From a virus: a stretch of DNA of 43,013 bases. The notes below the pieces were generated by a model that was not told where the DNA came from, ran no database searches, and was given only the letters and a program-made list of their open reading frames with translations. Within the stretch, counting starts at the first letter, position 1. Each line of letters starts with the position of its first letter. The position numbers and the translations under genes were made by a program. Of the stretch, positions 5,426 through 30,447 are shown one piece after another. The stretch lies in the IMG/VR virus record IMGVR_UViG_3300021952_000009, positions 1-43,013 of that record, one strand, 5' to 3'.

Positions 5426-5457
5426 AACCAAGAACCAAGAACCAAGAACCAAGAACT
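5426..5457. repeat. Heptamer tandem repeat (CCAAGAA)n
   Basis: Four perfect CCAAGAA units plus a partial unit lie between the ParB-like stop codon (5456) and the start of the next gene (5412). This is one of 16 sites of the same family. Confidence 0.9.
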
Positions 5458-7384
5458 AGTAAATAACGCTCAACTGAAACACATCCGGACACCATCCGTC
5501 CCCGAGTTTCCCCGGCTGCCATTCGTCCATGACTCGCTCTTCGAGCTCCTCCCGCTCCGTGTCCATCACACCCTCTTCGAGCGTCAGATCGTCCCGCAAC
5601 TGAAGCAGTTCCTTGTCCGTCAGCGTCTTGATGAGATCCTTGGACGGCATCCAGTGAGGCAGAGCAGGAGCCGCCAGCCATTTCGAAAGCTCGTTCATTT
5701 CTTCGAGGTTCAGATCCTCGTAGTTCGCCAGTGACACCTCTCCGACCGTAAAAAATCTGATCACCTTGGCGTAGATCGTCTCGTAGAACTTTTCATCTTC
5801 CTCAATGATCTCACCCACATCCACGGGAGGCAGGAACGTTTGCATCAACAGCATCAACCGAACAACTAACGGATAGTCCGCTTTGCGCGGCTTCGCGAAG
5901 CGTGCCCTGATCGCGCGTGCATGAGCCTCAAGCCATGCTGATGTGATCAGGTTCTTTCGCAGTTCCGCGGCCCGCTCCTTTTGGGCTTTCTTTGCAGCCC
6001 TGTCATCCTGTTCCCGCTGCTCTGTCGGCGGCTTCGCTGGCGTGACGGTCTCACTTGGAGGCGTGCTGGCCTTCTTCTTTTCTGCTGCCTTTTTCTGGAG
6101 CTTGTCCCAGGCCTCAGCATTCGTCGCCACCTGGATCTTTCCGAGTCGTGGATGATCGACCGTCGTAATGCCGAGTTGCTCCCGCAACTTTTCCGTCAAT
6201 TTGAAATCAACCTGACCCTTTCCCATTGGTCTATAGGCCGCTTCAAACCCGGCTGCCATCGCATCGCTAAAGACCATCTTGCCCGGCCTGATATCCGCTG
6301 CGTCACGGTCGAGAACCTTTAACACAGCCGCAGCAAACCCCGGCACCATGGCATGAGTCGCAATCTCGCGAAGCTGATCCGTGCTCAATCGGTCTGCGTC
6401 GAACCGTTCCCACACTTCATCCGGCAGCGACTTCAGGCGAGTAATGTTTGACAGCGTCGACCGCTCGATCCCGAGCTCCTTCAGCAGTTCCTTTTCCGAT
6501 TTCCCTCGTGCCTTGTAGTCGGCCTGCAGATCCACGTAGGCCGAACATCGTTCACGCAACGTCAGATCACGCCGTTTCGCATTCTCGATCAACACGAGCG
6601 TTCTGGCCGTCAGATCGTCGCAATGCACGAGGCAGACCTTGAGATGTTCCAGTCCCGCCAGTTGAGCCGCCAGAACACGAGTATGCCCCGCAATAAGCTG
6701 CCCGTCTGGTCTGGCCAGACAGGGAATCAACTGCTGATGCTCTTTGAGCGACTTGGCCAACTCCTCCACCCACTCTGGAGTCCTTCTCTCTCTGGTGTCG
6801 TATGGCGACCGATAGAACCATGACACAGGCTTCAACACGATCTCTGTGTCGATCCGGTATTCGATCTCATCTGAAGCGTTCTTGGTTCCTGGTTCTTGGT
6901 TCTTGGTCTTTTTCTTCGTTGCTGGTTTCGTGGCCATGTCGTCAGTTTCCTTCTGAAATGATGGGTCAAACTCTTCCGGATTAAACATGCTCTTTCGCGG
7001 CTTCTGTTCTGGTACCGCATCGCCCGCCGCGTCGATGTCGGCCGTGCTCGTCCTTTCTGACGATGCTGCAGCCTCGTCAGGGCTGGCGAATGTCATTGCC
7101 CTGAATCCACGCTTGTCTTCTGGCCCGAGCCTCACGAACTCCGGAGCCGCTGCGTCGAACGCCTGATAGTCTTCTTCCTGCCACTTGTCCGTGGCGTCGT
7201 CGTCTGCCAGGGGGATTACCCAACGCAGCAAGAGCAGCTTTTGATAACTGCTGAGTACCAACAGATCTTCTGTGGCGACCTCGTAAAAACTGCGAATCAT
7301 TCGCCGTATCGCCTCAACTCGATCACCATCGCTCATGGATTCCGGATCGAGTTCCTTCACGTCATCAAGTCCAATCTCCGACAT
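5456..7384 (-). CDS. ParB-like nuclease/DNA-binding domain protein with extra N-terminal domain
   Basis: This is a 642-residue protein. Residues about 174-300 match the ParB/Sulfiredoxin fold: the IDTEIVLKPVSWFYRSPYDT start, then GQLIAGHTRVLAAQLAG (228-244) with the GxHR core. A ParB-type helix-turn-helix follows (KELLKELGIERSTLSNITRL). Residues 1-149 are a separate helical acidic domain. At 158-169 the peptide KKTKNQEPGTKN is an in-frame heptamer-repeat insertion. Internal M150 has AAGGAA about ten bases upstream and could be a second start, so this may be a fusion of two genes. The C-terminal third is helical (a VRLMLLMQTFLPPVD region). Possible roles are partition or transcription/DNA-protein regulation. 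No ParA is visible. Confidence 0.82.
   Translation of the reverse strand: MSEIGLDDVKELDPESMSDGDRVEAIRRMIRSFYEVATEDLLVLSSYQKLLLLRWVIPLADDDATDKWQEEDYQAFDAAAPEFVRLGPEDKRGFRAMTFASPDEAAASSERTSTADIDAAGDAVPEQKPRKSMFNPEEFDPSFQKETDDMATKPATKKKTKNQEPGTKNASDEIEYRIDTEIVLKPVSWFYRSPYDTRERRTPEWVEELAKSLKEHQQLIPCLARPDGQLIAGHTRVLAAQLAGLEHLKVCLVHCDDLTARTLVLIENAKRRDLTLRERCSAYVDLQADYKARGKSEKELLKELGIERSTLSNITRLKSLPDEVWERFDADRLSTDQLREIATHAMVPGFAAAVLKVLDRDAADIRPGKMVFSDAMAAGFEAAYRPMGKGQVDFKLTEKLREQLGITTVDHPRLGKIQVATNAEAWDKLQKKAAEKKKASTPPSETVTPAKPPTEQREQDDRAAKKAQKERAAELRKNLITSAWLEAHARAIRARFAKPRKADYPLVVRLMLLMQTFLPPVDVGEIIEEDEKFYETIYAKVIRFFTVGEVSLANYEDLNLEEMNELSKWLAAPALPHWMPSKDLIKTLTDKELLQLRDDLTLEEGVMDTEREELEERVMDEWQPGKLGDGWCPDVFQLSVIY
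6879..6908. repeat. Heptamer repeat inside the ParB-like gene
   Basis: TTCTTGG/TTCCTGG units on the plus strand are read on the minus strand as KNQEPGTKN. The insertion keeps the frame and separates the N-terminal domain from the ParB domain. Confidence 0.88.
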
Positions 7385-7397
7385 ATCACCCTACCTT

Positions 7398-7931
7398 TCA
7401 TCTCACGTTCAAAACTGGCATCCGTTCCACGACCGGTTGCTTGTCCGTCAACACTCCACGACGAATGATTCTGAGATGACCTGCTATCGCAGATATCATT
7501 GGCTTTTCTCCCGTTTCCTTTGCGAGTCGATCTGCACAGTCCCTCGCTGCAGATAGATCTCCACTCGAAAACTTATGAGGCTGCGACTCCTCGAATCGAG
7601 TCACCCTGCAACCCACCGGCAATTGCAGTCCGCCGTCAAACACAATTTCCTCAATGATCCACGCGACCGATTTCAACTGTGCAGGCTTGGCTTGCTTCTC
7701 GGCTCGTTTCGCGACCGGATTCACCGCTGGATCGTGCACCGCCTGGCATACCGTGTCTTTCGTGTAGAGCAGGCTGGCAACAACGTCCACCTGGTCATCA
7801 GGCTCGTTTGGACAGACTAATTCCCCGCTGTCGACCCATGCCCGAATCTTGGCCTGTGCCTCTTTGTCCGTCAGGAGGCTTCGCCACTTCACACCGGCAA
7901 CCAGACCGCCCGCAAAGTCTGCAAGTCGCAT
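7398..7931 (-). CDS. Hypothetical protein
   Basis: This is a 177-residue protein with ATG at 7931 and GAGGA eight bases upstream. It starts one base past the stop of the next upstream gene, so the two are probably co-translated. The sequence is mixed alpha/beta (GVKWRSLLTDKEAQAKIRAW and DDQVDVVASLLYTKDTVCQA). I see no catalytic motif, zinc ligands or membrane segment. Its location between a zinc-binding protein and the ParB-like gene puts it in the DNA-metabolism block. No function is proposed. Confidence 0.6.
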   Translation of the reverse strand: MRLADFAGGLVAGVKWRSLLTDKEAQAKIRAWVDSGELVCPNEPDDQVDVVASLLYTKDTVCQAVHDPAVNPVAKRAEKQAKPAQLKSVAWIIEEIVFDGGLQLPVGCRVTRFEESQPHKFSSGDLSAARDCADRLAKETGEKPMISAIAGHLRIIRRGVLTDKQPVVERMPVLNVR

Positions 7932-7932
7932 G

Positions 7933-8956: not shown

Positions 8957-9399
8957 TCCGTTTTCCTGCTGAGACCTGCGATACAAAGCAATGATCCACC
9001 TGCCCCCTTGACCACCATGGCTTCGTGGCCTCCTACATCCGCGAGTCCATACACCGCTGGTCCCGGCAACATGTACGCAAGCCTTACTAATTCCACTTGA
9101 AACCACGTTGACCTCACCCGCACTGCGAACTCCTGAAGGTCTCCCCCCCACTCCGCGTCCCACACCCTCGGTAACGGCTGATCCACCTTCGCTGACACTA
9201 GCTTGCTAATCGTTTTTTCAACGCGCTGATAAATCTGCACTGGCGGCTTTGACCCAGCCCTCACGTATGGATCGTCAGCGACAAGGAGAATCACCCCCGA
9301 CACCAAGACAACCGAATCTCCGTCCCGTCGCCACATTTGGCCCGGTGCCGTCTCCTTGAACAGACTCCATCGAATCACCTGACGAATCATCTCAACCAT
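8953..9399 (-). CDS. Hypothetical protein
   Basis: This is a 148-residue protein. The ATG at 9399 shares a base with the upstream stop (TGATG) and has GGAG in the 3' end of that gene; a longer start at 9414 lacks a ribosome site. The sequence has a beta-rich N-terminal half (GDSVVLVSGVILLVADDPYV) and a C-terminal hydrophobic stretch (MLPGPAVYGLADVGG). It is coupled at both ends to the replication-protein and VRR-NUC genes. I recognise no family. Confidence 0.6.
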   Translation of the reverse strand: MVEMIRQVIRWSLFKETAPGQMWRRDGDSVVLVSGVILLVADDPYVRAGSKPPVQIYQRVEKTISKLVSAKVDQPLPRVWDAEWGGDLQEFAVRVRSTWFQVELVRLAYMLPGPAVYGLADVGGHEAMVVKGAGGSLLCIAGLSRKTE

Positions 9400-10421
9400 C
9401 ACTCCATCCCCCATGCTTTTTTTAGTCGTGCTTGTGCCTCTGCCACGTTGCTCGATATAGGCACCCTTGGCCGATCTTCCATCGGCGTCGTATCTGCGTC
9501 ATCAAACCTCCTGATGGCCTCGATTGCTCTCCGGATGTGCAACGGGGAACCGAGCCACTTGCGTTGCTTGATCCTCTTCGTGAAATACCCGCCGTGATTC
9601 CGGACGTCCGGCATCTCTGCCACGCAGATCGCCAGCGCGAAAAACCTCACGCGGCAATCAGCTTTCACATAGCCATAATCCAAAGCGTGCTCCCACAGCC
9701 GTTGCACCTGGTTCGCGTCCTTCAGGTGGACAAGACCAACCTCGAACGGCCAGCCGTGGTAGTTGCGTTCCTCTGGCAAATCGACGTTTGCGAAACATGG
9801 TTGTATTGATGGTTGAGAACATGGTTTAAGACATGGTTGAAGACCGCGCGCACGCGATAAATAAGTGTCACCCTCGTTCACCTCCGTCAACTTGTCAGGG
9901 GTTCCCGTCAAGTTGTCAGGGGTTCCTGCGAAGTTGTCAGGGGTTCCCGTCAAGTTGTCAGGGGTTCCGACACCGCTTTCCTTGGTCGACTTTCTTCCTG
10001 ATCTGACCGATTCCGTCCGTTGCGCCTTCCGTGGCGGTTCTTCAACCTTGCTGGCCGTTTGCGGGTTCTCCAACAGGATCTCTTTCACACCCTCCCACCG
10101 AATCGCGTAAAAGCTCGATACGCCTTCCACGCGACGCACCGAGAGCAATCCCCTGACTTCACAGTCCGAGACGATCCGCTCTGTCTGACGCACGCTCAGG
10201 CCCATTCGCTGAGCGATGGTTTCAATCTTCAGTTGCCACTCGCCGCCATCGCGCGTAAAGCTTTCGATGGCGATCAACAACCGCTTCATGACACCGGTTC
10301 GAGCCAGCCGGATATCTCCACCTGCTTCGACCCGGTCGAACCGAGGTATCACCAGATGATCGAGCCAGTCTTGACGCCTGGCCCGATTCCAGTCGAAGTT
10401 CTGTTGAGTTTCCCGAGTCAT
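9399..10421 (-). CDS. Winged-helix protein, replication initiator candidate
   Basis: This is a 340-residue protein. Residues about 55-115 form a helix-turn-helix (LKIETIAQRMGLSVRQTERI with a following wing, GLLSVRRVEGVSSFYAI). This type is common at the N terminus of phage and plasmid replication initiators. A low-complexity linker follows: four copies of GTPDNLT-like heptapeptides (about residues 150-180), then LQPCLKPCSQPSIQPC. The C-terminal half is helical (VQRLWEHALDYGYVKADCRV). The DNA coding the linker contains four 21-bp direct repeats, reminiscent of the origin iterons inside lambda gene O. The start overlaps csrA by four bases and the stop overlaps the next gene. Confidence 0.7.
   Translation of the reverse strand: MTRETQQNFDWNRARRQDWLDHLVIPRFDRVEAGGDIRLARTGVMKRLLIAIESFTRDGGEWQLKIETIAQRMGLSVRQTERIVSDCEVRGLLSVRRVEGVSSFYAIRWEGVKEILLENPQTASKVEEPPRKAQRTESVRSGRKSTKESGVGTPDNLTGTPDNFAGTPDNLTGTPDKLTEVNEGDTYLSRARGLQPCLKPCSQPSIQPCFANVDLPEERNYHGWPFEVGLVHLKDANQVQRLWEHALDYGYVKADCRVRFFALAICVAEMPDVRNHGGYFTKRIKQRKWLGSPLHIRRAIEAIRRFDDADTTPMEDRPRVPISSNVAEAQARLKKAWGME
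9892..9971. repeat. Four 21-bp direct repeats inside the initiator-like gene (iteron or origin candidate)
   Basis: TTGTCAGGGGTTCC begins at 9892, 9913, 9934 and 9955, an exact 21-bp period. The units are read as GTPDNLT, GTPDNFA, GTPDNLT and GTPDKLT on the minus strand. A second set of imperfect ACATGGTTGA-type repeats lies next to it at about 9792-9840. The placement within a replication-initiator candidate resembles lambda ori within gene O. Confidence 0.75.
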
Positions 10422-10626: not shown

Positions 10627-10661
10627 TGAACTAAGAACTACGAACTAAGAACCAAGAACTA
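10627..10661. repeat. Heptamer tandem repeat between cytosine methylase and csrA
   Basis: CTAAGAA, CTACGAA, CTAAGAA and CCAAGAA units occupy the junction between the methylase stop (10659) and the csrA ribosome site. Confidence 0.85.
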
Positions 10662-12971
10662 AACCCCCTTCAACTCCAACTGCCGATTCCGTAGCTGCGG
10701 CCGCTTACCCTTGCTCACCTTCAGGAATCCGCAATTCGCTGACACAAGAGCCGCTGCCAGTTGTGGGCAGACCGAGTTGCCTGCACAGCGGACCTGCTCC
10801 TCTTTGGTGAGAATCCCCGGCTTCATCAGCTTTCCGTCTTTGTTCCGCCGCTCATCGCACCACACCTCAATCTTGTAATTCCGTGGGAACCCCTGAGCGT
10901 TGAACAGTTCTCTGGCCGTGAGCATCCGCATGCCGATGTCAACGATCTGGTATTCCACTTCGTTGACAGTCACGATCCCGAATCGCTCTTTTGTCGTCGC
11001 CGTGTGCAACGGTTCACCGATCCCCTGATGGTTGTGGTGATTCCCGTAGTATTTGGCGAGAAACGCCATGACCGCCGCGTGATGCTGTCCGCCGGCTGTG
11101 ACCGTCTTCGCCGGATAGTCTGGATTCCCCGCACCGCCGCCTGTATTGCTGCCGTACATGTGCGACAGATACGCCGCTGCGACTCCTTGTTGCTGACCTG
11201 TCGTCACCGTTGCCACGGTGGCCCGAGCGTCCCCCGGACCGTGGCCCGTCGTGTTCGTGAACATCGTCTCCGCTTTCACCTCAACAACATTCTGCTGAGT
11301 CCCCCGAGTCGTGATCGTGGACAGTGGCCGCTCTGCGCTGTTGCCGATAACTCCCCCGTTGTGCTGTGCAATGAAGGCCTGAACCAACGCATGACGGTTC
11401 GATGTGTCCTGCGTTCTCAAAGGATCATTCAATTCACCACATCGCCCGACCGTGTCACCCTTGGGCCCGTGGTAAGCGTCCAGCACTGGAGCTACCAATG
11501 CTGACTTGCCACCGCCGCCTCCAGTCACAGTCGGCAATGGTTGCTCGATCGATACGCCGCGTGAGTTCCCGTACTGGCTGTCCAGGATCGGCACAATCGG
11601 CCCATCCGCTGGACGATTGTCCCCTCCGTGTTGTGCGACTGGCGCTACGACTTGGGCCCCGTTGTCTGTCGTCACGATCGTCGGCAACGGAGCTTCCACA
11701 GTTCCGCAGCGAGGTGCTTTCCCAGGAGCTTCCCCGTACCTGGGGACACAGTACGGAGCGATGATTGCGTTCTGATCCTTGTTCGACGCTGTCACTGTGT
11801 GCATTGGCCCGTCTGCTGGACGATTGGCCCCGCCGTGTTGCGCGAATGTCATGACTGGAGCAACAACGCATTTATCGTTTGACGTTGTTACCGTCGTTAC
11901 TGGCTCTTCAGCATGCCAGACATTCTTTCCCCGTCCCGTGGTTTTGCTGTGAGCAGGAGACGCCACGAATGGGGACAACACAGGATCGACCACACCAACC
12001 GCATCACGGCTGCAAGTGACAGTGCTGGCCGGTTGGTCTACCCCATAACCTCGGAACCAATCGCCCCCATGATTTCCGTACACCACGAATGGCTTCGCAC
12101 ACTCTAGGACGTAACGCTTCAGACCAGCAAAGATCCTCTTTAGCGTGTTTGCCTGTAGTGGCCGTTTGACGCCAATCACCTTGGCCTCTGCTGGAGTCAG
12201 GAAGATTGACTGACATGGAATTGACCAGTCGATGACGTCCGATGCTGCCGTTCTCCATGGCAGACGCATTCCCGCAATGACTTCTGCAGATCCTGGCTTT
12301 CCGTGGGTCGGCTCCGGCCAGACGATTGACTCACCATCGAATCGAATGATGACAAACAACCGCTTCCTGATCGTTGGAGACCCATAGTCACACGCTCGTA
12401 ACTCCCTCCACTCCACAACACCGCCAAGAGCCTGCAGACGACGAACCCACTTTCGAAACGTCTTGCCACGACGATCTGGGCAGGGGACGTACCACGGCTC
12501 CCCGGACTGATCAAACACCGGGAACCCGTCCGCCCCGACCTTCTTCACCACCGGGCCCCAATCCTGAAACTCCTCCACATTCTCCAGGATGATGACGCGA
12601 GGCCGTGTCTTGCGAGCCCAGTTGAGTACGACCCATGCGAGTCCGCGAACCTTCTTGCCTGCCCCACGCATCGGCTTCCCGCCGCGCGATTTACTGAAGT
12701 ACGTGCAGTCCGGTGAAAACCACCCCAGACCAACCGGCTTGTTGCGAGTGACCACTAGAGGATCTATCTCGCGGACATCGGTCTTGTAATGACGCGTCAG
12801 CGGATGGTTCGCCGCGTGCATCGCCAGCGCTGCCCCATTGTGATTGACGGCCACATCAGGGGACCTTCCCAACGCCATTTCAATACCGGTCGATGCCCCA
12901 CCTCCACCGGCGAAGCAATCGACGATCATCCACTCGGTAGCCTTGAAGCTGTTGACGTGTCGTTTTCTCAT
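10659..12971 (-). CDS. DNA cytosine-C5 methyltransferase with large internal repeat domain
   Basis: This is a 770-residue enzyme, about twice the usual length. It shows motif I DCFAGGGGASTG (residues 18-29), the catalytic motif IV SPDCTYFS with C89, motif VI ENVEEF (130-135), a motif VIII-like region SPTIRKRLFVI (198-208) and motif X GNSVCPQLAAA near the C terminus. The SPDC form of motif IV is one I associate with a phage subgroup. About residues 299-660 hold roughly ten imperfect 30-36-residue repeats with the theme QHGG..., RPADGP, HTVT, VVAP, inserted where the target-recognition domain should be. It would protect phage DNA or regulate; target unknown. The ATG overlaps the upstream stop by four bases. 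Confidence 0.93.
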   Translation of the reverse strand: MRKRHVNSFKATEWMIVDCFAGGGGASTGIEMALGRSPDVAVNHNGAALAMHAANHPLTRHYKTDVREIDPLVVTRNKPVGLGWFSPDCTYFSKSRGGKPMRGAGKKVRGLAWVVLNWARKTRPRVIILENVEEFQDWGPVVKKVGADGFPVFDQSGEPWYVPCPDRRGKTFRKWVRRLQALGGVVEWRELRACDYGSPTIRKRLFVIIRFDGESIVWPEPTHGKPGSAEVIAGMRLPWRTAASDVIDWSIPCQSIFLTPAEAKVIGVKRPLQANTLKRIFAGLKRYVLECAKPFVVYGNHGGDWFRGYGVDQPASTVTCSRDAVGVVDPVLSPFVASPAHSKTTGRGKNVWHAEEPVTTVTTSNDKCVVAPVMTFAQHGGANRPADGPMHTVTASNKDQNAIIAPYCVPRYGEAPGKAPRCGTVEAPLPTIVTTDNGAQVVAPVAQHGGDNRPADGPIVPILDSQYGNSRGVSIEQPLPTVTGGGGGKSALVAPVLDAYHGPKGDTVGRCGELNDPLRTQDTSNRHALVQAFIAQHNGGVIGNSAERPLSTITTRGTQQNVVEVKAETMFTNTTGHGPGDARATVATVTTGQQQGVAAAYLSHMYGSNTGGGAGNPDYPAKTVTAGGQHHAAVMAFLAKYYGNHHNHQGIGEPLHTATTKERFGIVTVNEVEYQIVDIGMRMLTARELFNAQGFPRNYKIEVWCDERRNKDGKLMKPGILTKEEQVRCAGNSVCPQLAAALVSANCGFLKVSKGKRPQLRNRQLELKGV
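10991..12077. repeat. Coding repeat array in the cytosine methylase target-recognition region
   Basis: About ten degenerate repeats of around 100-110 bp encode units such as QHGGANRPADGPMHTVT, QHGGDNRPADGPIVPI and QHNGGVIGNSAERPLSTIT. They are diverged at DNA level except for blocks such as GGCCCGTCTGCTGGACGATT near 11810 and a similar block near 11602. Confidence 0.75.
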
Positions 12972-13183: not shown

Positions 13184-13198
13184 GGTCTCCCTTCCAAT

Positions 13199-13244
13199 CA
13201 CCAAGAACCAATCACCAAGAACCAATCAGCAAGAACTAAGAACC
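13199..13244. repeat. Heptamer tandem repeat, degenerate
   Basis: CCAAGAA and CCAATCA-type units alternate (CACCAAGAACCAATCACC). They fill the junction between two genes and extend about 9 bp into the 3' end of the upstream gene. Confidence 0.85.
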
Positions 13245-13631
13245 TGCTTTTTGCGCCGTCCGCATTGCCTTTCCGTCGATTCGGCGATAGCTGACTGGAT
13301 CTTTAACGACCCAAAACGTCGGACGCAGTCGATGACGATCAAGCCATTCCGCCATGACGTTGCGTACAGCGGCTTCAAGCTCCTCGCGCTGCTCCTTCGT
13401 CGACCGATCCCAGGAGTCAGCACAGTCCATGCTGTACTCATCCTGGCTGGAGACATGTTCCAGCCAATCCGCCGCTTCCCACCAATCTTCAGGCTGAACC
13501 GGTTCCGAATCCTCTCCGACCCAGAACTCTTCACCGTCACTCACGAGAGTCAGAGCAAAAGCCACCGCGTCTGCTTCTGTTTCGAAGTCACCCTCGTATC
13601 GTTCTTCATTCGTCGAATATGACCACGTCAC
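13236..13631 (-). CDS. Hypothetical acidic phage protein
   Basis: This is a 131-residue protein from the GTG at 13631, selected because GGAGG lies six bases upstream; upstream in-frame codons belong to the heptamer repeat. The N terminus reads TWSYSTNEERYEGDFETEAD. The middle is rich in W, E and D (VQPEDWWEAADWLEHVSSQD) and the C terminus is basic (WLDRHRLRPTFWVVKDPV). I recognise it only as a type of small phage early protein and propose no function. Confidence 0.65.
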   Translation of the reverse strand: MTWSYSTNEERYEGDFETEADAVAFALTLVSDGEEFWVGEDSEPVQPEDWWEAADWLEHVSSQDEYSMDCADSWDRSTKEQREELEAAVRNVMAEWLDRHRLRPTFWVVKDPVSYRRIDGKAMRTAQKAGS

Positions 13632-13647
13632 GATTTGCCTCCACCAA

Positions 13648-13682
13648 AGCACCAAGAACTAAGAACTACGAACCAAGAACCT
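13648..13682. repeat. Heptamer tandem repeat
   Basis: Units CCAAGAA, CTAAGAA, CTACGAA and CCAAGAA lie immediately upstream of the GGAGG site of the gene starting at 13631. Confidence 0.88.
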
Positions 13683-13718
13683 GCCTAGTACTCCATCGCC
13701 ACCGCTGACGATCGCGGA

Positions 13719-14101: not shown

Positions 14102-14141
14102 AAACTAAGAACTAATAACCAATAACCAATAACCAAGAACC
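14102..14141. repeat. Heptamer tandem repeat
   Basis: Units CTAAGAA, CTAATAA, CCAATAA (twice) and CCAAGAA separate the exonuclease stop from the next gene's ribosome site. Confidence 0.88.
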
Positions 14142-14149
14142 TCCGCCTT

Positions 14150-15411: not shown

Positions 15412-15418
15412 GACTTCA

Positions 15419-15452
15419 CCAACCAAGCACCAAGAACCAAGCACCAAGAACC
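15419..15452. repeat. Heptamer tandem repeat
   Basis: Units CCAAGCA and CCAAGAA alternate, four in all, between the stop at 15457 and the gene starting at 15411. Confidence 0.88.
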
Positions 15453-15456
15453 TGCC

Positions 15457-22471: not shown

Positions 22472-23830
22472 TCACGTGTGTTGACCGGCTCTGCGAAGTG
22501 CCTCGTCAAGAATTGCCTCTGTCGATAGGTAGCCACGGCCTGCAACTCGGATCGCCTCGAACCACGACGCCCCCTTGGCCTGCTCATTGAGCCTTGTGAT
22601 GATCCTGACTCGATTCTGCTGGCATCCGGCGATTCCCCATTCGTTCATCCACTGTTGCCATTGCAGACAGACTGGACACGTTGAACGCTTGATTCCGCAT
22701 TCCTCCAAGATTGCGTGGACGTGATCGCCGACCGGTTGCCAGTCGGCCTTGAATTCCTTTTTTGTCTTTACCCAGACAGTGCCGAATGTCTTTTCGTCCA
22801 TCCCGGCCTCAATGAAGTGCCGTTTGCAGACGCTGAACCATTCTGAATCACCTTTGCCGGTGTCCAGGTATGTGATCAGGTGGCCGCGTAGACGATCCTC
22901 ACGCGTCAGGCCCGGTGGACTCGCTCCACCCGGATTGCCGAAGCGATGCCACCACTTGAGCCATGATGCGCACATGACCCGCCCGCCGTTCCTCCTGACT
23001 CGCTGATGCAGGTGGAACTCTTCGGGACCGAATCCCCTCAACTGTGGATGGAAGCCCGGCCATGCGTGGCGATTGCAGGAGAACAGGCCGCAACCGTGCA
23101 TCGGGATTTCAAACAAACCGTTCCTGGTTCCTGGTTCTTGGTTCTTGGTTCCTAGTGCCGCTTGGTCGACTCCCCATTGGCCGTACATCAGGCTTCCCCA
23201 GGCTGGCGTCATGTGAGTTGCCAGCACATCACCCTCGCAGCCGTCGCCGAGTAGGACACCGTGAATCAGATCTTTTGACTCTGGGTTCTCGCGGCCCCAG
23301 ATGGCCAGTTGTTCCAAGCCAAATGACTGAACGATCACGTGGCAGTCCATCACTACGACCACGCGGCCTGTGGCGTGATGGAACACTCGACCTTTCGCAG
23401 CCGCAGTGCCACTGACTTCCGTGTAGTGTTCGTAGATCACATTTCCCTGACGGCCAAGCATGCGACACATCTGCTTTGCCTTGAAGCTGTGATTGGTCTC
23501 ACCTGGCTCGTCAGGCTTGCCGTTTGGATCGTTGTCTATCACGACAATTTGCCAACGCCCGTAGTGATCGTGATTCATGCGGATACTGGCCAGAGTCATC
23601 GAGAGACCCTGCCAGTCCCGATAGAACGGGATGCCGATCGTCAACTCTGGTTCTTGCTCCGGACGTGGCCGCAGTGCACACCCCGCACAATTGGCGAGTG
23701 GCTTGCCGGCTGCCTTCAGCGGTGATTCTTCCAGTGTGCATGATCCGAATTCTGAGCAGGCGTGCACCTTGATTGGCGGCTCATGCACCTTGGCTGTGAC
23801 TGGTCCGCGACGATGGCAGGGATAAATCAT
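22472..23830 (-). CDS. Family-2-like glycosyltransferase with N-terminal Cys cluster
   Basis: This is a 452-residue protein. PELTIGIPFYRDWQGLSMTL (residues 61-80) is a GT-A opening strand. WQIVVIDNDPNGK (93-105) and VVVVMDCHVI (157-166) give nucleotide-sugar and metal-binding positions. A Cys cluster (C25, C31, C48 and C51) precedes it. Residues 227-236 (GTKNQEPGTR) are a heptamer-repeat insertion within the catalytic domain. The C-terminal 130 residues are helical with a CPVC pair. It is the last gene of the tail operon, next to a Ser/Thr-rich repeat protein. It may glycosylate that protein or the host surface. Confidence 0.8.
   Translation of the reverse strand: MIYPCHRRGPVTAKVHEPPIKVHACSEFGSCTLEESPLKAAGKPLANCAGCALRPRPEQEPELTIGIPFYRDWQGLSMTLASIRMNHDHYGRWQIVVIDNDPNGKPDEPGETNHSFKAKQMCRMLGRQGNVIYEHYTEVSGTAAAKGRVFHHATGRVVVVMDCHVIVQSFGLEQLAIWGRENPESKDLIHGVLLGDGCEGDVLATHMTPAWGSLMYGQWGVDQAALGTKNQEPGTRNGLFEIPMHGCGLFSCNRHAWPGFHPQLRGFGPEEFHLHQRVRRNGGRVMCASWLKWWHRFGNPGGASPPGLTREDRLRGHLITYLDTGKGDSEWFSVCKRHFIEAGMDEKTFGTVWVKTKKEFKADWQPVGDHVHAILEECGIKRSTCPVCLQWQQWMNEWGIAGCQQNRVRIITRLNEQAKGASWFEAIRVAGRGYLSTEAILDEALRRAGQHT
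23120..23154. repeat. Heptamer repeat inside the glycosyltransferase gene
   Basis: TTCCTGG, TTCCTGG, TTCTTGG, TTCTTGG and TTCCTAG units are translated on the minus strand as LGTKNQEPGTRN without breaking the frame. Confidence 0.9.
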
Positions 23831-23860
23831 AGTTCTTGGTTCTTCGTTCTTGGTGCTTTG
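23831..23860. repeat. Heptamer repeat at the glycosyltransferase start
   Basis: TTCTTGG, TTCTTCG, TTCTTGG and TGCTTTG units fill the whole junction between the upstream stop and the glycosyltransferase ATG, leaving no normal ribosome site. Confidence 0.85.
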
Positions 23861-25522
23861 TTACGCACAGAAGACGTCAGCCGTCTGTCCGCCGAATGTG
23901 CCATCAAACGTTGGAGCAGGTGCCGTGCATGGATCGATACAACCCGTCCCGCCCCCGACGCTACCCCAGTGATGTGGGTCTGAATCCGTCTGCCATGTCC
24001 ACCTCACGAATCCCGTACAGGCCCCGGTTGTTGTTGACGATGACGATGATCCGGTTGATCCTGTTGATCCCGTTGTCCCTGTCGTGCTGCTGCCCGTTGT
24101 CGATGACCCGGTTGTACTGCTGCCTGTGGTTGACGATCCTGTCGTACTACTACCGGTTGTTGATGATCCTGTTGTACTGCTGCCCGTGGTTGACGATCCT
24201 GTTGTACTGCTTCCGGTGGTTGACGATCCTGTCGTGCTGCTGCCCGTCGTGCTGCTCTCTGTCGTTGTGGTGGTCTCATTACAGGCGATTCTCTTGACAG
24301 TGATCGCGCCCGGCCACAAGCTCGACCAGTAGGCATCGTCCCTCGCGCACGTCATGCAATCGTCACCAGACCCGAATGAGTACGGACTGAATGCGATGTA
24401 TTTCCGCGTTGCTGCTGGATCATTGGTACAGTCTGGATCCTCCGCAAGTGTGTATTCGACGGTGATCGTTGTCCGGCCTCCGCCAACTGCACCTGCGCCA
24501 ACTGTACCTGCACCCAGTACGATCGGACACGTGGTGCCGTCAATGGCGTCGTCTGACCTCCAACCGGTATCCATGTACAACACGTATCTGAGCACCCTGC
24601 CCACGATCGATACGCGAGCTAGTCTGACTGTCAAAAAGTAGTGTGCGGACGGATGCAGATCGCAACAGCTACCCAACTGCTCATCCCAGATCACATAGTC
24701 GATCAGGTCTGTCGTCCACAAACACGTCTCTCCACCTGTCACGACCTGTAGTATTGCTTGACTGATTTTTGATCCACCGCTACACGATGGAAGCGGAACC
24801 GGAACTACGTAACAACATGTCAGTTCGCACGGCGGAGGTGGCGCCACGTCTTCGACATTGCAGCATGTCACATAGCGAAAGTCTGGATCCCCCGCATAAT
24901 CACTCGCGAGTGGTGCTGGCTCTCTGATCCAGTCCGAGTTCGACGTCGTCACACTGAAGCGGTGGTCTGTCGGTATTCCCGCGCGATCCGTGTCGTAACA
25001 TCCGGAGCAATGATTTTCGACAAGTTCCCACGTTGACACACCCTCCACCGTGACAACCTTCCACGTGGCAAACCCGAACCATTTGCACGGACACTCCGCC
25101 GTCTGCGTAAATGAGTCGAGATCCTGCCGTCTACCTGGACTGACAGCCTCATACCGCCCCGATTGCCCGTTCCAGATGGCCCAGAAGTATTCTCCACATC
25201 CGATCTTCCAGCGCTGATCGTGTCCACTGGCGTTCTTGCAATCTGTTTCTGCTGGCATCCAGACGCAGTGAGCTTCACCCTCAACACGAAAATACGTCAG
25301 CTTCGACTGATACGCCTGACTGTCAAACTCTGGATGAAACTCCAGCTTCGCCGCCCGCCCCACAATCGCATCCTGCGACCCGTAGCACCACTCCTCACCG
25401 CTATAAGACCACGGCAAGAACGTTTCGAGAGCGATGAACAGAACTAGCTCATTCGCTGGTCTTTGTTGTCGTTCCCGCACCGGAACGCGGGCCAATTCAC
25501 GATTGGTGTTACTGAAGTCCAT
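23861..25522 (-). CDS. Cys-rich tail-tip or surface protein with Ser/Thr repeat linker
   Basis: This protein has 553 residues from the ATG at 25522, which overlaps the upstream stop (TGATG). The N-terminal about 400 residues are rich in Cys and Trp (CNVEDVAPPPPCELTCCYVV and similar), suggesting an extracellular disulfide-bonded fold. About a dozen SSTTG pentapeptides then form a mucin-like linker. A short C-terminal Cys-containing domain follows (FVRWTWQTDSDPHHWGS). The order after the tape measure and a 768-residue tail protein suggests a tail-tip adhesin. The linker is next to the glycosyltransferase gene. No known family is recognised. Confidence 0.65.
   Translation of the reverse strand: MDFSNTNRELARVPVRERQQRPANELVLFIALETFLPWSYSGEEWCYGSQDAIVGRAAKLEFHPEFDSQAYQSKLTYFRVEGEAHCVWMPAETDCKNASGHDQRWKIGCGEYFWAIWNGQSGRYEAVSPGRRQDLDSFTQTAECPCKWFGFATWKVVTVEGVSTWELVENHCSGCYDTDRAGIPTDHRFSVTTSNSDWIREPAPLASDYAGDPDFRYVTCCNVEDVAPPPPCELTCCYVVPVPLPSCSGGSKISQAILQVVTGGETCLWTTDLIDYVIWDEQLGSCCDLHPSAHYFLTVRLARVSIVGRVLRYVLYMDTGWRSDDAIDGTTCPIVLGAGTVGAGAVGGGRTTITVEYTLAEDPDCTNDPAATRKYIAFSPYSFGSGDDCMTCARDDAYWSSLWPGAITVKRIACNETTTTTESSTTGSSTTGSSTTGSSTTGSSTTGSSTTGSSTTGSSTTGSSTTGSSTTGSSTTGSSTTGTTGSTGSTGSSSSSTTTGACTGFVRWTWQTDSDPHHWGSVGGGTGCIDPCTAPAPTFDGTFGGQTADVFCA
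24020..24265. repeat. 15/30-bp coding repeat (SSTTG)n
   Basis: Two alternating 15-bp units (GTTGACGATCCTGTC and GTACTGCTGCCCGTG types) give a 30-bp higher-order repeat of about a dozen pentapeptides. Such arrays change copy number easily by slippage or recombination. Confidence 0.85.
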
Positions 25523-27828
25523 CACTGAAAATCCAAATTCGTGAATGAGGTTTCAATGTGCGTGTTGCCAGTCTGCGTTGTCCCTGGAGCGTGAGACCCT
25601 CCCAGGTTGTAGACGATGGCCGTGATTGGCGTGTTGACGTCTGCCAACTGATAGCGGCCCCCTACGTCTGTGATCAACCACCCAAGCTGGAACGTCGCTC
25701 TGATCTGCTGCCACTGCAGATCGAGAGATTGACGCGTTGTCGAATACCACTGAGCCGCCGCCGTTGCGATCGACTTCAGACGCATCCGATCATCCTTGGC
25801 CGCTCCCCCGCTGGTCGTCTCGATCGGCAGGCCGTCGCGAATCTCGACCGTTGTATGGGGGATGACGTAATCGAATCTGGCGTTGGGGACCTCTATCAAC
25901 AGGATCTCTTCGGCTACCCCCGCTGGAGCCTCGTTCAGGACTGCGGATTGCTCGACGCGTTCTGTTAACTCCACACAGAGTGTTACCCACATGTCCTTGT
26001 AATCGAGGCCACCATGCAGACGCGACTTTTGCGAATCCGCTGTATCGGCCCATCCCGTTCCCTCGCCCGCAGTCGGCCCGCCGATGAAATGAGGCACGTC
26101 TGCGATCAATTCGAATCCCGGCTCCGTATCCACCACGTTGACACGGCATGACCAGTCTCGATTGGATTTCGAGTCGAATGACTTTTGATGCAGTCGGTCA
26201 AGCATTTCGTACCGATGCAGATTGACTGCCTCGCCGTCGGCTGCATCGCCATTTCCGGCGTATGTTCTCGCGTAGGCCAGCAGCGGAATGAATGACGGAT
26301 GTACCTGGCTCGTAAATGCCGCCGCGTAAACGAAGTCTGCCAAGGCGGTACCGCTGTAGTTGTGACGTTCATAGAGCGGTAGCCCTCGCATCACCCTGAG
26401 CAGCGGCACGAGATCCCTGCCGTCCCAATCTCCTTCCTCGTCCACCAAAGCTGTGTATGTCTCTGCCGTCTGGTCTCCTCGCAACCAGTATTCCGGACTG
26501 TCGAGCAGCTTGTGAGGATGTGGAATCTTGCCGTTCCATCGCTTGTCCGCTGCCACATGCGTATTCAGTACGAATCGGCGAAACACCTCGTTCAATCGAT
26601 CGGAATTCCGTGCGATCGCATTTCTGTTCTGTCGCTGCGTCAGGCTCAATCCTGAATAGTCTGATGCTGTGCTGGCCCCGGCTTTGTATTCAGCCTCATC
26701 ATCCGTCGACCATGCTGGGCGCGTGATTTCTGATGTCGTCCCGAGTGCCGCTGCAATGCGGGTCGTAAATGTCGTCGTTCGCCTGGCTCCGCGTGCGATG
26801 ACTCGGTGATAGCGCTGCGTTGTGGCATTCCTGACGCTGGCCTGAGTGATGTCGAATGCGTGTTCAAAGTCCAGCGATCGCTGATTCGCATTGGCTTTCA
26901 ACGTCTGTCCGTTGGGCAACAACAAATCCGTCTTGTTGAACGTGAAGACGTGCACCACTATTTCGTTTGTTGACGTATCGAAGTCGACCCAATAACCGAC
27001 GCCGCGAAATCGTGGAATCAGTGCGTCGAGCAATGCTTTCAGCGTCATTCCGTCTGTTGGCTGATTGACCTGCCACCAGTCGAGATAGTCGACATCCACA
27101 TCATCGGCGAATCTCCACCGGTTCGGGACTGTCCCATCTGCTGCCCATGGAGCGTGGTATTCCAACAGGTACTCAACCGCCGTGAATGCTGTCCACTCCT
27201 GCTGGCCTCGCTGGTCCCAACTGAAGACATATTTTGTATCCGCGTCGTCTGCGTCCTTTAGCCTGTTAGTTGATCTATTGCCACTCCTCGCGTACTGGCC
27301 CTGCTGGTCCGTGTTGAAGACGATTCCCGTCAGTGAGTGATATTTGTTGGCTTCAGTCCCATCGGTATCGACGTACGAAAAGTTTACGGGTCTTTTATCT
27401 GCCATCCTCAGCAGCCCATAAGCCATGACCTGCTGTTCGCCCTGTGGCGTGTTCTCCGGATCTGGCGTTGTGCCTGCTGTGTTCCGTTCGTCGTATTCGA
27501 TGATGCCATGCCATGTGATTGTTTCGTCAGAAACATCTGAGTCGTCTTCGTGAACGGTGTCACTGATCACGACCTTGACGAACTTTCCGTTCAGATCCTT
27601 TGGCGCGTACGTCGATGGCCCCGGCCCTGCTGCTCCCTCTCTCAGAATCTTTCCGTACGTATATGACAGACGGCATTGCTCGATTTCGGGAGCAACTGCC
27701 AGCCGCAGCATCTCGGCATACAGATACGGCACAACGACGAATTCACCCGTGGAAAGCGTGTCCGCGATCGATACGACCGCTTTGGGATGACGGTAGACGG
27801 TGCGTTTGGAGGTGGATATGGAAGTCAT
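25522..27828 (-). CDS. Large tail protein (baseplate or tail-tip candidate)
   Basis: This is a 768-residue protein. The N terminus (VYRHPKAVVSIADTLSTGEF, then LAVAPEIEQCRLSYTYGKIL) and the long middle, rich in Y, W and D (DYLDWWQVNQPTDGMTLKAL), have the look of tail hub or baseplate proteins. No enzymatic motif is seen. The C terminus has QLADVNTPITAIVYNLGG. It lies between the tape-measure side and the Cys-rich tail-tip protein, overlapping the latter. The ATG at 27828 directly follows a heptamer block and lacks a good ribosome site. Tail role is by size and order. Confidence 0.6.
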   Translation of the reverse strand: MTSISTSKRTVYRHPKAVVSIADTLSTGEFVVVPYLYAEMLRLAVAPEIEQCRLSYTYGKILREGAAGPGPSTYAPKDLNGKFVKVVISDTVHEDDSDVSDETITWHGIIEYDERNTAGTTPDPENTPQGEQQVMAYGLLRMADKRPVNFSYVDTDGTEANKYHSLTGIVFNTDQQGQYARSGNRSTNRLKDADDADTKYVFSWDQRGQQEWTAFTAVEYLLEYHAPWAADGTVPNRWRFADDVDVDYLDWWQVNQPTDGMTLKALLDALIPRFRGVGYWVDFDTSTNEIVVHVFTFNKTDLLLPNGQTLKANANQRSLDFEHAFDITQASVRNATTQRYHRVIARGARRTTTFTTRIAAALGTTSEITRPAWSTDDEAEYKAGASTASDYSGLSLTQRQNRNAIARNSDRLNEVFRRFVLNTHVAADKRWNGKIPHPHKLLDSPEYWLRGDQTAETYTALVDEEGDWDGRDLVPLLRVMRGLPLYERHNYSGTALADFVYAAAFTSQVHPSFIPLLAYARTYAGNGDAADGEAVNLHRYEMLDRLHQKSFDSKSNRDWSCRVNVVDTEPGFELIADVPHFIGGPTAGEGTGWADTADSQKSRLHGGLDYKDMWVTLCVELTERVEQSAVLNEAPAGVAEEILLIEVPNARFDYVIPHTTVEIRDGLPIETTSGGAAKDDRMRLKSIATAAAQWYSTTRQSLDLQWQQIRATFQLGWLITDVGGRYQLADVNTPITAIVYNLGGSHAPGTTQTGNTHIETSFTNLDFQ

Positions 27829-27833
27829 GGAAA

Positions 27834-27911
27834 AGTTCTTGGTTCTTGGTTCCTCGTGCTTGGTTCATGAGTCCCGGTGCCTGATTCTTGGTTCCTGGGT
27901 GCTTGGTTCAT
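27834..27911. repeat. Heptamer tandem repeat, diverged
   Basis: About ten units, TTCTTGG with variants TTCCTCG, TGCTTGG, TTCATGA and TGCCTGA, fill the junction between two tail genes. Confidence 0.85.
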
Positions 27912-28357
27912 GCCGGCGGTGGCGGCGGGGGCGGGGCGACGTAGACCGGGATCAGCGTCCAGACCGCCTCTACGACGTATGGCCCGCTGCAGGTCCCGCC
28001 CAGAGACGTTGACACCCGGCGCCATGATGCTGAGACATCCAAGATCCAGTATTTGTTGGATGTCGGTTCATCGTTGTAGTTCGCTCCCGCGTGAATGACC
28101 TCGACAAGCTCGTCGTTCACCGCTGCCTCGTACGCGACGCACAAGGCCTGAGCGACTGACTTGCTAATCACATCCACCATTGACGCCATGGCAAACGGCC
28201 TGCCCTTAACGCCAGTCGTGACGAATCCGGTTCCCGCTGTCCCTGGCCTCTGCACCGGACTGGCTGTCCTGCGTACCGTCTCAGGAGGACCGCCGTTCGA
28301 GGACATTCCCTTCAGCGAGACAAATTCGAAGTCGCCAATCATGTATGGGGCGGTCAC
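27908..28357 (-). CDS. Small tail-region protein
   Basis: This is a 149-residue protein starting with GTG at 28357, which overlaps the tape-measure stop (GTGA); AAGGGG lies upstream. The sequence is YMIGDFEFVSLKGMSSNGGP, then ASMVDVISKSVAQALCVAYE, with a C-terminal polyproline (VAPPPPPPPA) that runs into the heptamer block. Position directly after the tape measure fits a distal-tail or minor tail protein. No family is recognised. Confidence 0.6.
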   Translation of the reverse strand: MTAPYMIGDFEFVSLKGMSSNGGPPETVRRTASPVQRPGTAGTGFVTTGVKGRPFAMASMVDVISKSVAQALCVAYEAAVNDELVEVIHAGANYNDEPTSNKYWILDVSASWRRVSTSLGGTCSGPYVVEAVWTLIPVYVAPPPPPPPA

Positions 28358-30024
28358 TCAACGTTCCCCTTTAGATTGATTGGCCGCTTTGTCTTTTCCT
28401 TCCGCATTTCCTCAAGGGCTTCCAACTGCTTTTCCATCACAGCGATCATCTTTTCGTCGCGATCCTCTTTCGGCCTTCTACGCTCCAGGCTTAAGTCCTG
28501 TGATAGTTTTCGTCCCTCTTTCTGGATTTGTTCGAGGGATTTTTCTCCGCCATTTCCCGCCTGTCCCATCTCATTGGACTGCGATCCCTCTAACGACTTT
28601 GCGACCTTCCCGAATCGCTGGGCAGTCTGAGCGTTATTTCTTGAGTAGTACGCACCCTCAAGGGCTCTGGCGGTGTTGGTTGCTGCCTCTTCCGGCGACT
28701 GCCCCATCATTTCTCGTGACCACTTTGCCCATCCCGCTTCCTGACGGTGCATCCAACCAATCCCCTCGGCGCTCATGTTCTCCTCGAATCCCTGGCGAAC
28801 AACACCCCCTTTCGCGCCTGCCGTATCCTTGATCCTGGCCCGTTCTGCTGAGTTCACCAGGGACTGATTCTGATCGGCAATCTTGAGATTGGGATCTTCT
28901 CGCATCTCTTTCGCGCGTCGCTGGAATTCCTCCGATGATTTTTCGAGCGATGGCAGTGTCGCCATTGTTTCTGCCATGATCTTTGCTTCAGCGCTTCCTG
29001 CCGTCAGCATGGCCTTAATCGCTGGCGCCATGCGTCGCTCACCTGAGTAGCCGTCTGCGTCCTCAATTTTCATCACCCTCCCGTCTGGTGATGTGAACTC
29101 GGTTTGCAGACCCTTCAGCTTCTTTCCCTTGTACTCCTTGCCTTCAAGGAATGCGTCTCTCAATGCTGGATCTGCCTGCATCGCCTCAATACGTTCACGA
29201 GTTGTTTTGAACTCCGGCAGCGCCTCTGCCATCTGCATTTCTAAGCTAATCTGAGCGGTATTTGTTCTCTTTCCCGTCGTGTCTCCGGAACCGTGCGTCA
29301 GAGCGTTGCTGATGGCTACTCCGTATTCCAACGGAGTGTTATTGATCTTGTTTCCACCAAGCACCGCCGGAATCACGTTTTTGTTAAATGCGGCAGGATC
29401 GGCGACTCTTGATTGAGCCTGTGCGGCGAGTGAAAACCCGATCGCCTGTTCTGGCGTCGTGCCTGGTATTTGCTTCGTGATGTCGAGAGATGTTTCGCCC
29501 AGTTGCACCATCGACTCTTTATCGTGCCTGGCAATTTGTGCCGCTGCGACAAACGTCTTTTCCACGTCCTGTGTCGTCTGTGTCGGCCCCTTTGCCGCCT
29601 GCATCCTGTTCAGCATCTCCGGAACGATCTGCATTGGGACATTGTTGTCCGTGGACAATCGCTGAATCTGCTCTCTGACCTGTGGCAATGGTGCGTCCGT
29701 CGCCAACGCCAGCTTCGTCAGCGTCTGCGCGAATGACAGATTCGCATCCTTCGCTTTTTCCTGACGCCGAACGAAGTCGTCCCATTCCTGGCTTGCCAGT
29801 TGAATACCCTTGACGACCAAATCAACTGCGCTCGCTACCCCGGTTACCCTTTGAGCAAACGCAGTTGCCCCCTGGGTCATTCTTCCGAAACCTCCATCAC
29901 CTTCCTCGGACGTCTTTTTGACTCGCTTGATTTTGTTTTCCAATGAGTCGTACTGACGCTCCAGCTTGGCGATTGCCGCTAAAGCGTCGTTCGTATTCCC
30001 GGTAATGGTTAGGGCGGCTGGCAT
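28354..30024 (-). CDS. Tail tape-measure protein candidate
   Basis: This is a 556-residue, strongly helical protein. The N terminus ALAAIAKLERQYDSLENKIK is coiled coil, followed by AVDLVVKGIQLASQEWDDFV and long helical stretches (PQVREQIQRLSTDNNVPMQI). The C terminus is charged (EKQLEALEEMRKEKTKRPIN). Long coiled-coil proteins between tail tube and tip genes set tail length. About 556 residues would mean a short siphovirus tail (roughly 80 nm by the 0.15 nm per residue rule). No clear transmembrane helix or lytic domain is seen. Confidence 0.65.
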   Translation of the reverse strand: MPAALTITGNTNDALAAIAKLERQYDSLENKIKRVKKTSEEGDGGFGRMTQGATAFAQRVTGVASAVDLVVKGIQLASQEWDDFVRRQEKAKDANLSFAQTLTKLALATDAPLPQVREQIQRLSTDNNVPMQIVPEMLNRMQAAKGPTQTTQDVEKTFVAAAQIARHDKESMVQLGETSLDITKQIPGTTPEQAIGFSLAAQAQSRVADPAAFNKNVIPAVLGGNKINNTPLEYGVAISNALTHGSGDTTGKRTNTAQISLEMQMAEALPEFKTTRERIEAMQADPALRDAFLEGKEYKGKKLKGLQTEFTSPDGRVMKIEDADGYSGERRMAPAIKAMLTAGSAEAKIMAETMATLPSLEKSSEEFQRRAKEMREDPNLKIADQNQSLVNSAERARIKDTAGAKGGVVRQGFEENMSAEGIGWMHRQEAGWAKWSREMMGQSPEEAATNTARALEGAYYSRNNAQTAQRFGKVAKSLEGSQSNEMGQAGNGGEKSLEQIQKEGRKLSQDLSLERRRPKEDRDEKMIAVMEKQLEALEEMRKEKTKRPINLKGNVE

Positions 30025-30037
30025 GATTCCGAAAGCT

Positions 30038-30066
30038 TTCTTGGTTCTTGGTGCTTTGTTCTTAGT
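30038..30066. repeat. Heptamer tandem repeat
   Basis: TTCTTGG, TTCTTGG, TGCTTTG and TTCTTAG units lie between the gene ending at 30062 and the tape-measure start. Confidence 0.85.
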
Positions 30067-30376
30067 TACCTGCCTGGATCGTTGTTTGTGGCGATGCTGC
30101 AGGCGGGTCTGTTGCTGTGGCCTCCTTTTTCAGGCGTTCGATTTCGGCTGTTGTGATCGGTCCGAATTCGAATTGCTTGAAGTTGGCCGCGTAGCTGTGG
30201 CCTTGCTGGCAGTGCAGGTCCCCACCTGCATCTTCGACGATGATCGGCGATTTGCAGATTTCGCAGGCCTTCATCGAGCTGACATCGCCGCCCCCGACGA
30301 TTGGATCCACCAACGCCGTGTCCGGCGATGGTCGATCGCCACTCGGCACTTCTGACGATGCTTGTTTTTTCGCCAT
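30062..30376 (-). CDS. Small zinc-ribbon-like protein with family-2 repeat peptide
   Basis: This protein has 104 residues from the ATG at 30376, set by GGGGGAG. Residues 16-31 (SPDTALVDPIVGGGDV) come from the GACGATTGGATCC repeat. The C-terminal part has CEIC (C38 and C41) and HCQQGH (C56 and H60), a C2-CH zinc ribbon. The tail is Thr/Pro/Ala rich. It sits in the tail block but is flanked by heptamer blocks on both sides, which suggests an inserted gene. Function unknown. Confidence 0.6.
   Translation of the reverse strand: MAKKQASSEVPSGDRPSPDTALVDPIVGGGDVSSMKACEICKSPIIVEDAGGDLHCQQGHSYAANFKQFEFGPITTAEIERLKKEATATDPPAASPQTTIQAGN
30296..30315. repeat. Dispersed repeat family 2, copy C
   Basis: GACGATTGGATCCACCAACG differs from copies A and B by one base. 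It is translated in frame on the minus strand as LVDPIVG, as in copy A. Confidence 0.8.
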
Positions 30377-30385
30377 GTCTCCCCC

Positions 30386-30447
30386 CAACCAATAACCAAG
30401 AACTATGAACCAAGAACTATGAACCAAGAACTATGAACCAAGAACTG
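30386..30447. repeat. Heptamer tandem repeat, 14-bp higher order
   Basis: CCAAGAA and CTATGAA alternate (three perfect 14-bp pairs). The array fills the junction between two genes of the tail block. Confidence 0.9.

Follow-up and report, generated by a model that had tools for sequence, protein, structure and literature searches.

Tandem heptanucleotide arrays at gene junctions of a phage genome and their planctomycete-type counterparts

The virus record IMGVR_UViG_3300021952_000009, analysed here over its whole length of 43,013 bases (the window), carries short tandem arrays of a seven-nucleotide unit, AACCAAG or its complement CTTGGTT, in many of the gaps between its genes. This raises the question why a phage genome should hold one heptamer at so many gene borders. 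An initial annotation of the sequence had listed 16 such arrays and considered a mobile or self-propagating repeat, a recombination hotspot or a transcript-level signal. On balance we think it probable that a heptanucleotide satellite prone to slippage, with the consensus (AACYAAG)n, has settled in non-coding gaps of the phage; repeats of this type are dispersed in some planctomycete (Pirellulaceae) chromosomes. The pattern can be explained without assuming a function.

Placement of the arrays in the window

Tandem Repeats Finder and a matching script recovered all 16 listed arrays to within a few bases. A 17th, weaker array was found at 2900–2935, and a degenerate trace reported near 16000 did not qualify as an array. 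At an equal criterion, 40 first-order Markov simulations yielded no period-7 array of AACCAAG/CTTGGTT as compared to 17 in the window. AACCAAG ranks first among the 1,172 heptamer classes in the window, and the next ranks are occupied by its own variants. Both orientations are present, as had been observed before.

The non-coding share of the window is 11%, based on the output of a home-made codon-usage caller with approximate gene starts. Array midpoints fall into this non-coding share in 14 of 17 cases (1.9 expected), as do 621 of the 779 array bases. When the gene map was shifted circularly, 2 of 6,144 shifts reached the midpoint count and 1 of 6,144 the base count, which bears out the suspected enrichment at junctions. 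Same-strand junctions shorter than 20 nt are free of arrays (0 of 24), and 13 of the 24 longer ones hold an array, all within 5–31 kb. No arrays were found in the half with the head and packaging genes (31000–43013) despite gaps of 59–98 nt.

Read in the sense of the mRNA the usual order is stop codon, array, ribosome site and ATG, and at most window junctions the array is located 4–15 nt 5' of the start codon. The description of the arrays as lying between genes is correct for most of them and incorrect for those at 2900, 6879 and 23120, which are inside open reading frames (ORFs). The arrays at 17537 and 17953 are located in a long gap with no evident genes, and the one at 17317 overlaps just a weak ORF of 43 codons. 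The window has two features of dispersed intergenic heptamer repeats, namely short tandem arrays of a 7-nt unit at numerous sites and an enrichment in non-coding DNA.

Array-free relatives and chromosomal counterparts

The window encodes a portal protein, a fused head-protease and a tyrosine integrase as well as C5 and D12 methylases, a ParB-like protein, an O-like replication protein and an exonuclease VIII-like protein; from its position and conserved motifs we read the gene at 40480–42510 as a putative large terminase. The carrier is therefore regarded as a temperate tailed phage. Among 392 genomes of the phylum that includes the Pirellulaceae metagenome-assembled genome (MAG) G003, 8 contain relatives of its terminase (up to 45% identity), and several late genes of the window recur in the same order in the region G173. 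A planctomycete host is likely, and since the terminase search covered this one phylum alone, it is a host that we infer. Searches for close relatives by portal, single-sequence terminase and DNA found little.

Viral loci related to the window by their terminase contain no arrays in 978 kb, and the same is true for 24 related whole records and for 340 kb of planctomycete sequence surrounding related terminases. A conserved feature of the phage lineage is thereby ruled out, as phages with a related late module carry zero arrays. Relatives with the repeats at random positions, which the initial annotation had named as evidence against its view, did not turn up: the relatives have no arrays, and in unrelated array-bearing phages the arrays are mostly junctional.

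The closest relative found, G413 (terminase identity 52%), has the gene order A, B, C, D in common with the window. In G413 genes A and B overlap by a single nucleotide, and in the G173 region, where gene B was assigned by position only, 9 nt separate them; in the window they are 79 nt apart and the space is filled by an array of 70 nt. Between C and D the spacing is 26 nt in G413, while in the window four genes intervene and the array at 30035–30068 is located at the C-side border. A parallel exists in chromosomes: the gene pair X/Y has an overlap of 4 nt in both G577 and G613, and in G003 the two genes are 200 nt apart, with an array of 140 nt. The proteins at the compared junctions are about 32–64% identical, and the comparison therefore shows the gain of arrays, not the event itself. 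This much of the proposal of a mobile or self-propagating repeat was supported, namely entry into junctions, as one that is tight in relatives is filled here, the relatives are free of arrays and the repeat family also occurs in some planctomycete chromosomes.

The same junctions bear on the idea that the arrays act as recombination linkers, i.e. as 30–70 bp of shared sequence at gene borders across which genes are swapped with array-bearing phages or the host via phage annealing recombination. One array is located exactly at the start of the four-gene block absent from G413 and another one inside it, the exonuclease VIII-like gene would suit such a process, and in Corndog-type phages gene gain and loss by recombination between dispersed repeats has been described (PMC4351075). 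However, the A/B junction and the G003 chromosome gained an array with the gene order unchanged, mixed orientation would favour inversions and deletions, and the border is a single case, with no gene exchange across an array observed. We consider linkers an unlikely explanation. The recombination hotspot proposed earlier is possible on the basis of the one block-border array next to the genes absent from G413, and so is a secondary role of the arrays as short homologies for gene exchange.

Arrays of the pattern (AACYAAG)4+ occur in many bacterial genomes, with the Pirellulaceae MAGs SJ586 (G003) and M30B19 (G001) being prominent, and their hosts also include Verrucomicrobia, Bacteroidota and Chloroflexi. 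In the bacterial chromosome loci 144 of 164 arrays are intergenic at a coding fraction of 0.83. A perfect 24-mer was found in 13 of 199 genomes of the family and is dispersed at many sites in only a few of them (e.g. G001, G003, G005), so dispersal is sporadic. Three Pirellulaceae genomes were seen to have dispersed copies. The reversed-pattern control of the genome search was invalid because AACCAAG read backwards is its own rotation. When IMG/VR was scanned completely for variants of the planctomycete type, 33 and 22 stretches were obtained, in which 56 of 74 arrays are intergenic. Several viral contigs with multiple arrays (L014, L039/L043, L098, L569) show the layout stop, array, start and are otherwise largely unrelated. 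A private signal of this phage is ruled out, as the AACCAAG family is also found in chromosomes and, as a rare occurrence, in several unrelated phages.

The unit composition was compared between the window and these sets. The three commonest of 94 units in the window (AACCAAG 34, CACCAAG 12, AACTAAG 11) are also the three commonest of 673 units in the planctomycete loci (AACCAAG 285, AACTAAG 176, CACCAAG 74). CACCAAG accounts for 5 of 208 units in Verrucomicrobia and is outside the top 12 unit types in Bacteroidota and Chloroflexi. Since position 4 could be C or T in the retrieval pattern, the chromosomal counts of AACTAAG are inflated; CACCAAG was excluded from the pattern, so that for this unit the comparison is fair. 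What the phage carries seems to be a repeat of the host type, not a novel system for signalling.

Growth and ends of the arrays

Four arrays of the window have private higher-order periods, of 14 nt at 13194, 15416 and 30382 and of 21 nt at 17311. Such periods are expected from local slippage or unequal exchange, and they disfavour copy-and-paste of a single master array. In L559, near-identical junction flanks at 2938–2976 and 3478–3503 surround arrays that differ in unit number, and this pair directly illustrates that units are gained or lost. Because of the private 14- and 21-nt periods, the occurrence of both orientations and the absence of folding described below, we favour local slippage in tolerated sites over a strand-specific signal. 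Short seeds would originate at a junction or be carried into it, and would then lengthen and shorten through polymerase slippage in multiples of 7. They would survive where no gene is broken, i.e. just behind a stop codon and ahead of the next ribosome site. An array that reaches the end of a gene could provide a new gene end, since AACTAAG/CTTAGTT units in tandem contain stops in every frame. Frequently a CTTAGTT or AACTAAG unit supplies the gene's own stop with its TAG or TAA, a pattern which fits arrays encroaching on gene ends and becoming the new end.

Arrays at a distance of up to 15 nt from a stop codon were counted and compared with random placement within the gap. In Planctomycetes 17 were observed versus 8.0 expected, in Bacteroidota 11 versus 5.2 and in the junction phages 11 versus 6.8. 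Gaps with arrays are convergent in 11 and divergent in 2 cases in Planctomycetes. Proximity to start codons is not enriched over random placement, except weakly in Planctomycetes. The gaps of the window are filled by their arrays and too small for the stop-proximity test.

A cis-acting expression signal at gene borders, acting as a translation start aid or in transcript processing or termination, would agree with the location of arrays 4–15 nt upstream of the start codon at most window junctions, with a 17:2 strand bias of stop-adjacent arrays in Planctomycetes and with the strong hairpins formed by head-to-head array pairs of one other phage. However, the window arrays occur in both orientations relative to transcription and are missing from the head module, and the chromosomes favour the stop side and, in Planctomycetes, convergent gaps. 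Furthermore, four window arrays do not fold better than their shuffled versions (z -0.32 to 1.86), and the arrays have no match in Rfam, i.e. no known RNA family was found. The transcript-level signal suggested before is thus disfavoured by both orientations, the lack of a fold in the tested arrays and the stop-side preference in chromosomes, and we judge a cis-acting signal to be quite improbable. Hairpin terminators in the window are unsupported since the four tested arrays fold like shuffles, and the same applies to stem-loops as in repetitive extragenic palindromic (REP) sequences or bacterial interspersed mosaic elements (BIME). The head-to-head array pairs are found at gene ends in L576 (3227–3301, 8638–8710 and 12527–12595; also in L566 and L570). 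The two that were folded gave hairpins with z about -5 and are perhaps terminators built from the heptamer repeat.

Several observations weigh against the slippage of a host-type repeat. The right end is AACY in 10 of 17 window arrays (p = 3e-4) and in 9 of 13 arrays of other phages (p = 1e-4) at an expected fraction of 0.19, and the left end is AAC or CAC in 8 of 17 window arrays (p = 0.006); these p-values refer to a null of random boundaries and are exploratory, as several tests were chosen after seeing the data. To these are added the strand bias of the stop-adjacent arrays in Planctomycetes (17:2) and a polarity of chromosomal arrays, with a CACCAAG fraction of 0.30 in the left half and 0.02 in the right (G003 and G001: L255, L259, L270, L312). 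The host-type unit comparison was drawn from loci selected for arrays, and the planctomycete host is one that we infer. The density of 17 arrays in 43 kb here clearly exceeds that of the sampled chromosome stretches (12 in 160 kb of G001, weak arrays counted), and slippage of a host-type repeat does not account for the array richness of one phage. End registers, strand bias and polarity hint at more than pure slippage, possibly at an insertion with defined ends.

Such an insertion would involve a mobile satellite with a length of 7n+4 and AACY at both ends, placed preferentially at gene 3' ends by a dedicated or borrowed enzyme. The end-register bias in the window, other phages and Planctomycetes and the polarity of CACCAAG are in line with it, as are the difference between occupied and tight junctions and the sporadic bursts in few genomes. 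The bias is partial, however, with both ends present in 5 of 17 window arrays, and the private periods point to local growth. No clear conserved flanks were found around the window arrays, no shared flank or consistent target duplication was seen at the arrays, and no enzyme was identified. We hold this mobile satellite to be very unlikely. That the arrays are a transmissible satellite (7n+4, AACY ends) sent mainly to gene 3' ends and passed between phages and bacteria of the Planctomycetes-Verrucomicrobia-Chlamydiae (PVC) group, and not slippage noise, appears rather doubtful as well.

Known repeat systems and individual arrays

Inside genes the heptamer was encountered mainly in one protein family: 93 of 99 in-gene arrays of the first viral scan are located in DUF1376/PF07120, annotated in PHROG as primosomal protein. 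Among DUF1376 genes picked by their N-terminal domain only, 63 of 72 contain an in-frame array at residues 110–131, in a sample skewed towards relatives of the first sequence. Examples are L462–L541 (e.g. the L462 gene from 1501) and L009 (4079–4873). The AACCA core is 98–100% invariant over 313 units and the last two bases, hence the residues, are variable, a pattern that points to constraint at the DNA level. By analogy with lambda O these arrays are probably in-gene origin iterons, and they provide an origin motif that can be tested in a large family of phage primosomal genes.

The consensus AACCAAG and the period of 7 are common to the DUF1376 arrays and the window. For this reason we considered that the window arrays are protein-binding sites, either as iterons for replication like those of DUF1376 or as targets of the ParB-like protein which the phage encodes. 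In addition to the matching consensus, the invariant core of the in-gene arrays is in favour of binding. Nevertheless, the DUF1376 genes typically hold one array, within the primosomal gene and with AACCA invariant, whereas the window arrays do not keep this core (position 4 is C in 70% only). No DUF1376 protein is found in the window, in the junction phages G016–G018 or in most array-rich hosts, and the O-like gene has its own four 21-bp repeats. Binding sites are thus extremely improbable, and iterons of a DUF1376 initiator are ruled out for the window, with its unkept core and no DUF1376 gene. For the same two reasons the shared consensus may be a coincidence.

The earlier statement that no phage system of this kind is described was too strong, considering known dispersed heptamers (PMC4692102, PMC4679880) and junction repeats of mycobacteriophages (PMC3203893, PMC4351075). 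In Xanthomonas and Nostoc the intergenic heptamers GGGAATC/GGGGAYT are dispersed genome-wide with few units per array, mostly in non-coding DNA; the GGGAATC type is located near stops including overlap with the stop and rarely between divergent genes, and slippage was tentatively proposed (PMC4692102). The 7-nt unit, the short arrays, their spread and the non-coding location are similar here, nearness to stops is shared by the planctomycete loci and the junction phages and rarity between divergent genes by the planctomycete loci, whereas those repeats are chromosomal and have an unrelated unit. The unit of the window is not G-rich, and G-quadruplex heptamers (GGGNATC) are excluded as AACCAAG/CTTGGTT has at most GG. 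The TAACTGA direct repeats of Beggiatoaceae, Cyanobacteria and Bacteroidetes are patchy across phyla without a known transfer mechanism, and a cis-acting expression role was proposed in Beggiatoaceae (PMC4679880). They likewise have a 7-nt unit, a mainly intergenic location and a patchy occurrence in distant phyla, but they are mostly forward and immediately upstream of starts, in contrast to both orientations and stop-proximal chromosomal copies here. A translational repeat of the TAACTGA type was therefore rejected, start proximity being unenriched except weakly in Planctomycetes.

The start-associated sequences (SAS) and extended start-associated sequences (ESAS) of Cluster K mycobacteriophages, for which an expression role was suggested, are a single asymmetric element of 13 bp, nearly all in one orientation (PMC3203893). 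They are also repeated at many junctions of one phage, but are non-tandem and largely conserved at homologous genes of relatives; an element of the SAS type is ruled out for the window repeat, which is tandem, present in both orientations and absent from relatives. Cluster O mycobacteriophages carry 17-bp palindromic repeats in more than 30 dispersed copies, many of them intergenic, with a role in gene gain and loss (PMC4351075). Their dispersal in a phage genome and frequent intergenic location resemble the window arrays, while dyad symmetry, non-tandem arrangement and presence in all cluster members distinguish them. In Chloroflexus aurantiacus heptamer satellites (GATAGRA)n are found (PMC6749651), likewise one family scattered through a genome, but with another unit and in the chromosome only.

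Known dispersed intergenic heptamers belong to cellular chromosomes. The record of the window is viral and encodes a portal, a head protease and an integrase, and its repeat family is also chromosomal. The window arrays are a phage-borne variant of these repeats, which works alike and has its sequence family in common with chromosomes. In the open-access literature searched, we came across neither a phage with heptamer arrays of this kind nor a paper naming the exact repeat strings, and no earlier case is known to us of chromosome-type heptamer satellites filling phage gene junctions. Chromosomal heptamer repeats of bacteria have long been known without explanation. Phages replicate and recombine fast, and array-bearing phages next to array-free relatives give a tractable view of the seeding and any effects of such repeats.

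The individual arrays are located as follows. The weak array at 2900–2935 (+) is inside the ORF 2525–3043 (-). An (AACCAAG)4 array at 5426–5456 (+) adjoins the TAG stop of the ParB-like gene (5456–7384, -), the next gene starting at 5412. The array at 10627–10662 (+) has the C5-methyltransferase gene (stop at 10659) on one side and a gene starting at 10615 on the other. At 13194–13244 (+) the array has the private period (CCAATCACCAAGAA)3, and a TAG stop is contained in a repeat unit. An 87-nt gap between the genes 13719–14087 and 13236–13631 contains the array at 13643–13683 (+), and the array at 14102–14144 (+) extends between the exonuclease VIII-like gene (14150–15112, stop at 14150) and a start at 14087. 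The array at 15416–15455 (+), with the private period (AACCAAGCACCAAG)2.3, fills its intergenic gap. Downstream of the gene 16798–17157 the array at 16749–16785 (-) lies in a gap of 98 nt. The longest array, at 17311–17388 (-), contains 3.4 copies of its 21-nt period and is followed by those at 17534–17577 (+) and 17953–17988 (+) in the gap of 17.4–18.05 kb.

The ORF 22472–23830 contains an in-frame array at 23118–23159 (-), and the array at 23826–23863 (-) covers the stop of 23861–25522 together with the start of 22472–23830, whose ATG comes from an AACTATG unit. The array at 27831–27900 (-) fills the junction of genes A (25522–27828) and B (27908–28357). At the upstream edge of gene C (28354–30024), where the block absent from G413 begins, the array at 30035–30068 (-) contains a TAA stop in an AACTAAG unit. 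Within this extra gene block the array at 30382–30447 (+) has the private period (AACCAAGAACTATG)3.8.

A further in-frame array, at 6878–6909 (-), is located within the ParB-like ORF 5456–7384 upstream of the ParB_N domain and separates an N-terminal part of 160 residues from this domain. The ORF may represent two genes, or the array may be a repeat-made linker. In annotating such genomes caution is advisable, as stops and in-frame linkers may be repeat-derived. Other repeats of the window include a coding repeat of 30/60 bp at 24078–24247 in the gene 23861–25522, which is large and late and has no match in PHROG. The lambda O-like gene 9399–10421 contains four 21-bp direct repeats (CCGTCAAGTTGTCAGGGGTTC) at 9884–9968, which are probably replication iterons of the phage itself.

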